From a virus: 21,898 nucleotides of DNA. Shown in pieces: positions 18,355 through 21,898 of this stretch; positions within the stretch are counted from its first letter, which is position 1; each line of letters starts with the position of its first letter. The position numbers and the translations under genes are program-made. The stretch is from the IMG/VR virus record IMGVR_UViG_3300006753_000095, positions 1 to 21,898 of that record; one strand, given 5' to 3'. The notes beneath the pieces were generated by a model. The model saw nothing but the letters and a program-made list of their open reading frames with translations, was not told the origin of the DNA and made no database searches.

Positions 18355-19566
18355 ATGTCTATATATTATACACCCTCCAATAACGAAAACGCCAAACAAC
18401 TCTTTGAAAAGAGAACCATCTATAACGTCACTGCACGCACCACTAACACCGGATATAAAAATTTGGTAGATTTTAACTTCGCAGAAAAATTTCTTTATGG
18501 GAGAGTGGACCCCTATTATGTTCCTATTGAACTTTCTTCTACAGTTTTCTCTTTAAAATCTTTCAAGGGTTCCCCAGACACTTTTCAGGCGGTTAATTAT
18601 GTAGTAGATGCGTTTAACGATGTGGTGTTGGAGTTCCAACGCTGCGCAGCGACCGGCCAAATTGACGCTTCGGATCCTTTTTTAAGTAATCCGATAGTGT
18701 ATAAAGCTTATGTGCCTCCCAAGAAACAATACGACGAATATTTAAAAACCTATTTTAATGCCATAGCAGGAGAATTCAAAGCCAACAAGATTAGGGTTAA
18801 CAATTTTGATGAGTTTATGATAGAATTAGAACACAAATTACTTCCGGCCCTGGGTCAGCATCCTTTTACTAAGTCGGGATACCTTAAAAGTCGCTTTTGT
18901 CCTATTAATGTATCGGGACTGGCTATCGAAATAGCTACTCTTGATTATGCCAATGATGAAGAAAAAATAAAACAATTTATTAATAGCCCAAATTGGGAGT
19001 TCTATTTAAATGTTTGTCGTTCTTATGGATTTATGGTAGATAAGTTTGTGCCCTGGAGAATAGTGGCGGATGTTAATTCTGAGTCAATGGTTGACTATGC
19101 ATTGAAGTACTGCCCAGGTCTTAACACCACCACAAAAACCCCCTTAAACTTGGGGTATAGTGGTGCACATACGACCTTTTTTAATAATTTTAAACTTATT
19201 CTTTACAATTTATACAACCGAGTGAGGGTGAAAAGCTATTCTCAACTGATGAGTTGTAATGGGAAAGTGAAATCTCACAAAGTGATACCCCAGCGCTATA
19301 CTTTAGAAGAATTTTCGGACCGCTATTCTGAACTATACTTTTTAAAATTATATTTTCGTTGGCGCGTCTTAGAGGAAGAGATTCACTTGGAAGACTTTGA
19401 AAGTGAAATCTTAATAGATGATAGTATAGAGCTTTATCTAGCCAGCGGCCTTTCGAGGGCCCTTCAAGGGTTCGAAAGAGTAGTAAACAAAACATTTGAC
19501 TTTCGGGGTTCCTTGACGTATACTAAGGAATACCTAGAGGCGCGGTCAGCGTTGGAGACGACTTGA
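18355..19566 (+). CDS. Unknown protein, probably virion or tail associated
   Basis: 403 residues; AAGGA at 18342-18346 and a 12-base gap from the large tail gene place it in the same operon. It is rich in Tyr, Phe, Asn and Lys, with mixed helix and no signal peptide, membrane segment or catalytic motif. Recognisable landmarks: YGRVDPYYVPIELSS near residue 50, HPFTKSGYLKSRFCPINVSG near 175, WEFYLNVCRSYGFMVDKFVP near 225 and FSDRYSELYFLKLYFRWRVL near 320. I do not recognise a family. The string YGRVDP also occurs in the tube-cap-like protein, which is perhaps only chance. It overlaps the polymerase start by four bases (TTGA), so it links tail and replication genes in one transcript. Confidence 0.5.
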   Translation: MSIYYTPSNNENAKQLFEKRTIYNVTARTTNTGYKNLVDFNFAEKFLYGRVDPYYVPIELSSTVFSLKSFKGSPDTFQAVNYVVDAFNDVVLEFQRCAATGQIDASDPFLSNPIVYKAYVPPKKQYDEYLKTYFNAIAGEFKANKIRVNNFDEFMIELEHKLLPALGQHPFTKSGYLKSRFCPINVSGLAIEIATLDYANDEEKIKQFINSPNWEFYLNVCRSYGFMVDKFVPWRIVADVNSESMVDYALKYCPGLNTTTKTPLNLGYSGAHTTFFNNFKLILYNLYNRVRVKSYSQLMSCNGKVKSHKVIPQRYTLEEFSDRYSELYFLKLYFRWRVLEEEIHLEDFESEILIDDSIELYLASGLSRALQGFERVVNKTFDFRGSLTYTKEYLEARSALETT

Positions 19567-20747
19567 TATTTCAGACACTAGACGATAAAACTGAATGCGT
19601 GGGGGTGTATGCGGACGGCGAGTTACATTTTGAGAAATATCCCGATAAGCTAACACAGACGTGGAAGTATACCGGCGTCTTCCCAGCAGCCGATATCGAC
19701 TACGCGAACTTATATTGCGACGGAAAAACATTAGCTCAGGTGTGCCCCCCGGCCATAGAAGAGCGGCTCACGAAAGCTCAGCGCCGCCTAAAAGCTTACC
19801 AACAATCATTTCAGATAGCTAAGATCAATTTGCGCAATCATTGTATTTTTGATTTAGTTCCTCATGATTTTTTAAAAGAGTTTTGCGATATTAAAAATCA
19901 AATTACGAACCACGTTTTAACAACATATGATAGGCCGCTTGTTTATGAACATCTCAGAGATGTAACCAAGCTGTTATATAAGATAAAATTTCAAAATTTA
20001 AACCTGTCCGCGGAACATTGTCAAGAGTTATTTTACAATACTCCCTCTAGAGTGATGGCAAAGAAGTTGTTGGACGGACCTCGTCATATCGATTATAATT
20101 TGTTTGGAACCATCACAGGACGCCTGACTACACAACCGCTTTCCTTCCCCATTCTTACTTCTCAACGAGGATTTAGGAAACTCTTAAAACCTTCTAATGA
20201 TTGGTTTTTGTCTTTGGATTATAATGGAGCAGAAGTACGCACTCTCCTGGGAATGTCCGAGGAGGAGCAGCCCCAAGTGGATATTCATAATTGGAATGTA
20301 AAAAATCTTTTTGAGGATTTTATTACACGGGAAGAGGCCAAGACTATCTTTTTCGGATGGCTATACAATCCGGATTCTACAGCGATAGAGACCGACGTGT
20401 ATAATCGTCAGAAAGTATTAGATACATATTACGATGGAGAATATGTTACCACCCCCTTCTTGAGGAGAATTAAAGTGCAGCAGTCTCGGGCCCTTAACTA
20501 CTTAATTCAAAGTACTACCGCGGACTTGGTACTGGATCGGGCTGTTGCAATTGATAACTTTTTAGAAGGCAAACGCTCCTTTGTTTCTCATATTGTTCAT
20601 GATGAAATTGTGATGGATATGGTAGACGAAGAAAGAGAATTCATCCCTGTGATAAGGGACATTTTTGCAAAAAATAAAATTGGTACTTACTTAGTCAACT
20701 TGAGTGCTGGAAAAAACTATCTGGATTTAAAGTATTTAAACCTATGA
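19563..20747 (+). CDS. Compact family A (Pol I-type) DNA polymerase without recognisable exonuclease
   Basis: 394 residues from TTG at 19563, which overlaps the previous stop (TTGA) and has GGAG at 19554-19557. The polymerase motifs are in order: TITGRL (183-188); motif A with D219 and E224 (SLDYNGAEVRTLL); DIHNWNVKNLF; the fingers helix with R256, K260, F264 and Y268 (REEAKTIFFGWLYN), matching Klenow R754/K758/F762/Y766; N312 and Q316 (ALNYLIQSTTADL); and motif C H346-D347-E348. All key catalytic carboxylates are present, so it should be active. The first 150 residues show no DEDD exonuclease motifs; the family usually has 600-900 residues. Phe at 264 predicts discrimination against dideoxynucleotides. 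It is coupled by ATGA to the next gene, with an SSB gene beyond. Confidence 0.85.
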   Translation: MIFQTLDDKTECVGVYADGELHFEKYPDKLTQTWKYTGVFPAADIDYANLYCDGKTLAQVCPPAIEERLTKAQRRLKAYQQSFQIAKINLRNHCIFDLVPHDFLKEFCDIKNQITNHVLTTYDRPLVYEHLRDVTKLLYKIKFQNLNLSAEHCQELFYNTPSRVMAKKLLDGPRHIDYNLFGTITGRLTTQPLSFPILTSQRGFRKLLKPSNDWFLSLDYNGAEVRTLLGMSEEEQPQVDIHNWNVKNLFEDFITREEAKTIFFGWLYNPDSTAIETDVYNRQKVLDTYYDGEYVTTPFLRRIKVQQSRALNYLIQSTTADLVLDRAVAIDNFLEGKRSFVSHIVHDEIVMDMVDEEREFIPVIRDIFAKNKIGTYLVNLSAGKNYLDLKYLNL

Positions 20748-21583
20748 TTTCTATAATTGGAATTGGCAATGGCGCTTCGGCCGTAGCTGAAAAATTTAAA
20801 GATACCCCTCAATATAACGTTTATCTATTGAATGATAAGGTATCTCGTACGTCTAAGTATAAATTCAAATTAAAACGTTTTGACAAACCGGAAGATTATG
20901 AAGACAATGCTCCGGATCTCACAAAGTTTTTTTCCACTGTTGATGATCGCGTACAAGTTTTTGTAATGGGGTCGTCTTATAGTTCCAACTATGCATTGGC
21001 TGTCTTAGAACAGTTGAAGGACAAGAAAGTAGATGTATTTTATGTTAAACCCGATACCGCTCTTTTAACCGGCCTTCCCAAGTTGATAGAGAATGTGGGG
21101 TTTGGAGTGCTACAACAGTACGCGCGTTCGGGTAATTTTAATTCTATTACCTTGGTGTCAAATGTACATGTAGAGGAAGCCCTGGGGGAGCTTCCTATCA
21201 AGACATACTTTGATCGGATAAATGCGTCTATTTTTTCTACTGCACATTATCTTAATTATTTTGAGCACACCGAGCCGGAAGTGGGAGTCATGGCTCATCC
21301 TGCTGAGATTAACCGCATCCGCACGGTCGCCATGCTTAATATGAATAATTTAGAAGAAAAATGGCTGTTTGACCTTGACACTCCTCGGGACTTGTGTTAT
21401 TATTTATGTATAAACAGTGAGAGATTAGAAAAGGAGGGCGGCTTGCACAAGAAGATAGTAGATCGTCTAAAGGACAAGCCCCGGAATGCCTTCCGCAAAA
21501 TTTCATATGCGATTTATGAAACTGAACATGAAGACTTTGGGTTCTGCGTTGCCCATACTAACGTAGTACAAGAAAACTCTTGA
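20744..21583 (+). CDS. Unknown protein, possible divergent tubulin/FtsZ-like fold
   Basis: 279 residues; its ATG overlaps the polymerase stop (ATGA) with only a weak ribosome-binding site, so translation is probably coupled. The layout resembles tubulin/FtsZ proteins: a glycine loop in a first beta-alpha unit (IIGIGNGASAVAEKF), a strand ending in Asn-Asp (VYLLND), a second strand and small-residue loop at 72-82 (VFVMGSSYSSN) where FtsZ has its GGGTGTG loop, a strand ending in KPDT, then SITLVSNVHVEEAL and a long helix (YFDRINASIFSTAHYL). But the GGGTGTG loop and the T7-loop aspartates are not conserved (AHPAEINRIRTVAML), so GTP hydrolysis is doubtful. A Rossmann-like nucleotide-binding protein is the main alternative. 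The gene is real; the fold is a hypothesis. Confidence 0.5.
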   Translation: MISIIGIGNGASAVAEKFKDTPQYNVYLLNDKVSRTSKYKFKLKRFDKPEDYEDNAPDLTKFFSTVDDRVQVFVMGSSYSSNYALAVLEQLKDKKVDVFYVKPDTALLTGLPKLIENVGFGVLQQYARSGNFNSITLVSNVHVEEALGELPIKTYFDRINASIFSTAHYLNYFEHTEPEVGVMAHPAEINRIRTVAMLNMNNLEEKWLFDLDTPRDLCYYLCINSERLEKEGGLHKKIVDRLKDKPRNAFRKISYAIYETEHEDFGFCVAHTNVVQENS

Positions 21584-21600
21584 CATGCTACGTCGAGAGT
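21576..21600 (+). other. Inverted repeat overlapping the -35 of the SSB promoter
   Basis: ACTCTTGAC pairs with GTCGAGAGT (nine pairs, one T-G) around a seven-base loop. It covers the stop codon of the upstream gene and the TTGACA box. It could be an operator or a weak terminator; no T run follows. Confidence 0.45.
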
Positions 21601-21608
21601 GTTATTAT
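21580..21608 (+). promoter_or_regulatory. Sigma70-like promoter of the SSB gene
   Basis: TTGACA at 21580-21585, a 17-base spacer and TATTAT at 21603-21608 match the host-type consensus 11 of 12. It is the only such promoter I see here and fits an early or middle gene. The TGA stop of the upstream gene lies inside the -35 box. Confidence 0.75.
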
Positions 21609-21655: not shown

Positions 21656-21898
21656 ATGGGAATTGATATGGAGCTAATGCGCCGCAAGCTCGCACAACTA
21701 CGCGGTGAATATGATGCAAACGGAAATGGAAACTCCGTTTGGTTTAGACCGGACGACGGAGATACGGACATTCGTATTATCCCCACGCCGGATGGTGATC
21801 CACTAAAGGAAATGTTCTTCCACTATAATGTGGGTGAGCACCGCGGAGGCATTCTATGTCCGAAGCGAAACTATGGTGAGCATTGCCCAATTTGCGAA
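21656..21898 (+). CDS. Single-stranded DNA-binding protein, T4 gp32-like (3' end missing)
   Basis: 81 codons are visible before the window ends; AAGGAG at 21643-21648 sets the ATG at 21656. The N-terminus is a basic helix (MELMRRKLAQLRGEYDAN), as in the self-association part of gp32. Then VWFRPDDGDTDIRIIPTP, EMFFHYNVGEHRGG and a zinc-binding set: His in HYNVGEH, Cys at residue about 70, then C-x8-C-x2-C (ending CPICE), close to the His-Cys-Cys-Cys site of T4 gp32. It coats single-stranded DNA in replication and repair. Following the polymerase and the tubulin-like gene, with its own sigma70-like promoter, it marks the border from the late tail block to replication genes. Confidence 0.87.
   Translation, partial: MGIDMELMRRKLAQLRGEYDANGNGNSVWFRPDDGDTDIRIIPTPDGDPLKEMFFHYNVGEHRGGILCPKRNYGEHCPICE

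Follow-up and report, generated by a model that had tools for sequence, protein, structure and literature searches.

Polymerases of the divPolA1 group were first described by Yutin et al. in 2024 from 14 phages, including Flavobacterium phage immuto and three GOV genomes (PMC11348598). In these proteins the catalytic site of the palm is intact, the exonuclease is inactivated by replacement of all three catalytic aspartates, and the thumb is truncated; the genomes are 155-190 kb in size and carry conserved replication genes directly 3' of the polymerase gene (PMC11348598). Genomes with a divPolA1 protein also encode a regular polymerase, which may be of family A, B or C, and it is the role of these 'regular' polymerases, whose gene context is more mixed, that is the less obvious one (PMC11348598).

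The window analysed here is the whole of the IMG/VR virus record IMGVR_UViG_3300006753_000095 (21.9 kb), which ends 1.2 kb 3' of a gene for a compact polymerase. Its 394-aa open reading frame, at positions 19563-20747 on the plus strand with a TTG start, is present just as the first-pass annotation of this DNA had described it, and matches PF00476 (DNA_pol_A) with E=2.9e-14 and 53.3 bits (Pfam cut-off 34.3). Searches with two neighbouring genes gathered about 100 related viral contigs, whose habitat we take to be marine from their gene content and the sample series. The compact polymerase was found in every relative contig that reaches its place; the longest relative contig spans 130.8 kb, is classed as linear and is probably incomplete. 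GTDB genomes searched with the compact polymerase gave no relative, and a direct tblastn search of annotated phages returned only distant PolA proteins at 23-25% identity.

The nearest annotated isolates, judged by terminase, are immuto (48%) and Microcystis phage Mel-JY01 (44%). In both, a compact PolA gene occupies the corresponding position, with the last tail-side gene before it and gp32 after it. With hhalign, the window polymerase aligned to immuto gp001 with a probability of 97 and an E value of 7.4e-11 over 253 columns, and to the compact protein of Mel-JY01 with an E value of 4.8e-9, while the full-length immuto PolA, gp199, reached only 0.006. The gene product is a compact, exonuclease-less family A DNA polymerase of the divPolA1 type, as characterised by PF00476, an AlphaFold2 model, structural comparison with VIA and a 44-sequence alignment, and is a member of this published group.

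The first-pass annotation had credited the 394-aa protein with all core polymerase motifs, and the residues it listed do map onto the catalytic positions of E. coli Pol I. Motif A (20217-20234, plus strand) holds D219 and E224, equivalent to E. coli D705 and E710; motif B on the O helix (20328-20366, plus strand) holds R256, K260, F264 and Y268, equivalent to R754, K758, F762 and Y766; and motif C (20598-20606, plus strand) holds H346, D347 and E348, equivalent to H881, D882 and E883. We aligned 44 non-redundant copies, the others being 51-60% identical to the window copy, and found all nine residues invariant across these diverse homologues. Such invariance is far beyond chance and, at the level of sequence, argues for an active enzyme under selection.

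One of these residues bears on the choice of substrate. E. coli E710 occupies what we take to be the steric-gate position, and an invariant E224 at this gate favours dNTPs, which speaks against a family A-derived RNA polymerase or primase of the kind represented by the T7-like RNA polymerases; a relative also encodes a separate DnaG-like primase. Such an activity has been suggested in the literature for divPolA2, the other divergent group (PMC11348598), but for the compact polymerase we consider it very improbable.

The AlphaFold2 model of the compact polymerase, built from the 44-sequence alignment, is confident (pLDDT 93.2, pTM 0.91) and has a Pol I-like polymerase fold. The best Foldseek matches of the model are Pol I large fragments from Bacillus and Taq (E about 1e-12), and VIA superposed 354 residues on the Bst Pol I large fragment with a Z score of 25.6 and an rmsd of 4.1. 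The short fingers noted earlier are borne out by the spacing of the motifs: 32 residues separate the motif A glutamate from the motif B arginine, compared with 44 in E. coli, and 44 residues separate the O-helix tyrosine from the conserved asparagine preceding motif C, compared with 79. The fingers are thus shorter by about 12 residues ahead of the O helix and by 35 past it. A catalytically dead or purely structural relic might be suspected from the lost exonuclease and from the altered motif residues of the cultivated kin, but this is hardly probable for a protein with so confident a model and with catalytic residues invariant in 44 diverse sequences.

No PF01612 match was found in the compact polymerase, in agreement with the earlier statement that it has no recognisable 3'-5' exonuclease. 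By VIA, residue 1 of the model aligns to residue 316 of Bst Pol I, which presumably lies inside the exonuclease-like domain of that enzyme, and for this reason the protein seems to begin with a short remnant of a 3'-5' exonuclease domain, as far as the model goes. This putative remnant would cover about residues 1-60 (19563-19742, plus strand), an extent and register that we infer. From the start to the TGRL motif there are 187 residues, compared with 344 in Klenow, and the N-terminal stretch has too few residues to hold a whole catalytic exonuclease domain. The N-terminus is strongly conserved nonetheless in sequence (MxFQ[TAS][LI]DDK.EC[VI]G.Y). The profile-sequence alignment to Klenow stops short of the exonuclease region, and the residues assigned to D355 and E357 depend on the register chosen.

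An exonuclease encoded elsewhere, completing a split enzyme, was the finding that the first-pass annotation had named as contrary to its view. At a threshold of E 0.001, we found no PolA-type exonuclease (PF01612) elsewhere in eight long relative records and no RNase_T/DnaQ exonuclease (PF00929) elsewhere in 19 relative records. The immuto 'exonuclease' gp090 was also considered as the missing proofreader and was rejected, as it matches PD-(D/E)XK nucleases and not a DEDD exonuclease.

The missing exonuclease and the shortened fingers could also be read as marks of a translesion enzyme, able to synthesise across damaged bases. Foldseek matched the model to pol nu and pol theta, among others, and one relative also has a UvdE endonuclease (UvdE-type UV endonuclease, L116:11704-12648 in the 130.8-kb record, PF03851, E=2.6e-59). 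However, pol nu and pol theta match no better than Bst or Taq Pol I, and the constant association of the gene is with replication genes, described below, and not with a damage-response set. We therefore regard translesion synthesis as the main role as quite improbable, although sequence cannot decide between repair and translesion.

The gene had been described as attached to the tail operon, which is misleading: it lies at the boundary between tail and replication genes and opens the replication module. The last gene 5' of it (18355-19566, plus strand) encodes a 403-aa protein of unknown function with no Pfam or PHROG match. Its position is kept in relatives, where homologues with about 31-50% identity lie just 5' of the polymerase. 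The reported TTGA overlap between this gene and the polymerase is real in the window, but the spacing varies among relatives, from a 26-bp overlap up to a gap of about 19 bp. On the downstream side, all 93 loci examined show the same 4-bp overlap between the polymerase and a 279-aa gene (20744-21583, plus strand); in the window, the start of the 279-aa gene shares ATGA with the polymerase stop.

Directly 3' of the 279-aa gene, and thus two genes past the polymerase, a homologue of the gp32 single-stranded DNA-binding protein (SSB) is found in all 90 testable loci, namely those on contigs long enough to reach it. In the window, the start of this putative T4 gp32-like gene occupies 21656-21898 (plus strand) and is cut by the contig end; its assignment follows from position and from the relatives' proteins, which match PF08804 (E=9.2e-15) and also phrog_1192. 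A promoter-like site 5' of gp32 (21580-21608, plus strand), TTGACA-17-TATTAT with TG preceding the second hexamer, agrees with the consensus at 11 of 12 positions, a match to consensus only. In long or annotated relatives the order of genes is polymerase, 279-aa gene, gp32 SSB, UvsX/RecA, 5'-3' exonuclease (the 5' nuclease), DnaB-type helicase and class II RNR. The 130.8-kb relative also holds an SbcD-like phosphoesterase and an SbcC-like ATPase, counterparts of T4 gp47 and gp46, in one 1064-aa open reading frame (L116:15272-18466).

The 279-aa neighbour has no Pfam match above cut-off, including Tubulin, no PHROG match and no match among annotated phages. Its AlphaFold2 model (pLDDT 91.6) matches FtsZ in Foldseek with an E value of 1.5e-12, and VIA aligned 257 residues to CetZ, spanning residues 1-279, with a Z score of 23.8 and an rmsd of 3.1. 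The protein is thus predicted to have a full-length FtsZ/tubulin fold. The FtsZ GTP-binding signature GGGTG[ST]G is absent, and the corresponding stretch is mostly G[SA]SxS, a degenerate glycine loop. N140 and N160 are invariant asparagines that, going by the sequence pattern, we take to resemble the two asparagines with which FtsZ binds guanine. The 130.8-kb relative also encodes a second FtsZ/tubulin GTPase, this one canonical (L116:18463-19599, PF00091, E=4.8e-8, with GGGGN and GGGGGTGSS loops), and its sole annotated-phage match is in Bacillus phage G. A profile of the 279-aa protein is not significantly similar in sequence to this canonical FtsZ, so the predicted fold is what the tubulin relationship is based on.

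An overlap that never departs from 4 bp suggests co-translation of the polymerase with the tubulin-fold protein, and co-translation of the pair in turn suggests joint action. It is tempting to go further and picture the two as one functional unit in this marine lineage, with synthesis of the polymerase coupled to that of a phage-encoded filament-forming or filament-derived protein that perhaps also holds or places the enzyme, but we regard this as rather unlikely. If true, DNA synthesis would be connected to a cytoskeletal element in phages other than the jumbo phages that form a nucleus. A literature search found no description of a gene pair of a polymerase and a tubulin-fold protein.

The first-pass annotation had expected a family B replicase, as is normal in a T4-like phage, and this expectation failed in the relatives: none of eight long relative records contains a family B polymerase. 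Instead, a PF07733 search of 19 relative contigs found a family C (DnaE-type) polymerase in all ten whose sequence continues for at least about 12.3 kb past the compact PolA, with its alpha domain about 12-20 kb 3' of that gene. The other nine contigs end before about 12.3 kb. One of these shorter contigs, L071, ends within the first codons of the family C gene, and the 130.8-kb record, which stops within a DNA methyltransferase-like gene 12.0 kb past the compact PolA, neither shows nor excludes the family C enzyme. A complete family C polymerase of 1138 aa with PHP, alpha, finger and HHH domains is encoded by an 85-kb record (L138:1053-4469, minus strand). There the gene lies in a T4-like structural background, where it overlaps the end of a 296-aa open reading frame without a Pfam match and is followed by a ClpP-like protease gene. 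The presence of family C in all ten far-reaching contigs indicates that phages of this lineage have the compact enzyme together with a family C polymerase and, as we infer from the relatives, that this probably also holds for the phage of the window.

The cultivated relatives likewise have a second polymerase: immuto encodes a 777-aa full PolA with its own exonuclease, and Mel-JY01 encodes a PolB with its own exonuclease, plus a clamp loader. An accessory role was among those proposed in the first-pass annotation, and it is this proposal that the separate family C enzyme of the relatives and the separate full PolA or PolB of the related cultivated phages support.

We propose that the compact polymerase has an accessory role, filling gaps as Pol I does, in a phage whose replicase is of family C, a reading to which we give a probability of roughly 0.6. 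The family C enzyme would copy the genome, and the compact PolA would do the job of Pol I, filling the gaps left by primer removal or repair. Gap filling would take place on gp32-coated DNA, together with the separately encoded 5' nuclease of the same module. The phage would thus have Pol I split into one gene for the polymerase and another for the 5' nuclease, and proofreading would be absent.

The two enzymes could also have the opposite roles, because the family C gene is located away from the compact replication cluster, and in such phages it is the 'regular' polymerases whose function is harder to see (PMC11348598). The compact enzyme would then be the main replicative polymerase, and the family C enzyme would have another role. 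The tight conserved cluster of the compact gene with the SSB, recombinase, 5' nuclease and helicase genes fits this view, as does the more mixed context of 'regular' polymerases (PMC11348598). However, the family C protein has the PHP, alpha and finger set and is present wherever this could be tested, an enzyme with no proofreading and shortened fingers is unlikely to be the sole replicase of a genome above 130 kb, and immuto and Mel-JY01 each have a complete PolA or PolB that includes an exonuclease. On balance, we consider it unlikely that the compact polymerase is the main replicase.

A PolA without proofreading, probably accessory, is a regular component of the replication module across a large lineage of marine T4-like phages, and it is retained even though related phages differ in their main polymerase (A, B or C). 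Beyond the published description of divPolA1, our analysis adds about 90 marine loci, a marine clade whose active site is more canonical than that of immuto and Mel-JY01, and an overlap of invariably 4 bp with a tubulin-fold neighbour, which brings to light a conserved gene pair.

Among known systems, immuto gp001 is homologous to the window polymerase and likewise has tail genes on one side and gp32, RecA, 5' nuclease and DnaB on the other. The window clade keeps the equivalents of E710, H881 and E883, whereas immuto gp001 has H, Y and A at these positions. Small genes (gp002 and gp003) lie between polymerase and gp32 in immuto, in contrast to the tubulin-fold gene of the window clade; the 279-aa gene is not what occupies this place in immuto or in Mel-JY01. 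The compact PolA relative of Mel-JY01, a 408-aa 'hypothetical protein' (50397-51623; L129:3398-4624), is also homologous and has the same neighbourhood, but its motif A reads DYDAFH and its motif C YDA, the R754 equivalent is lost, and the protein falls below Pfam DNA_pol_A detection. Since the motifs of immuto and Mel-JY01 differ in this way (E710 to H; HDE to YDA), one shared activity across divPolA1 is uncertain.

The divPolA2 protein of barbaviruses resembles the compact polymerase as an accessory exonuclease-less PolA beside another polymerase, but it is set apart by its description, with no homologous thumb and variable neighbourhoods (PMC11348598). Rhodothermus phage RM378 is similar as a T4-like phage with polymerase and exonuclease as separate genes. 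Judged by motifs, its split polymerase reads as family B, with no significant similarity to the compact polymerase (BLASTP E 1.6), and we rejected RM378 as a precedent for a split family A enzyme. The large fragments of Pol I from Klenow, Bst and Taq share both fold and catalytic residues with the compact polymerase (Z about 24-26). Compared with bacterial Pol I, the compact polymerase is without a complete 3'-5' exonuclease domain, its fingers are shortened and the 5' nuclease is a separate gene. At this locus the idea of a split Pol I can be put to the test in a phage.
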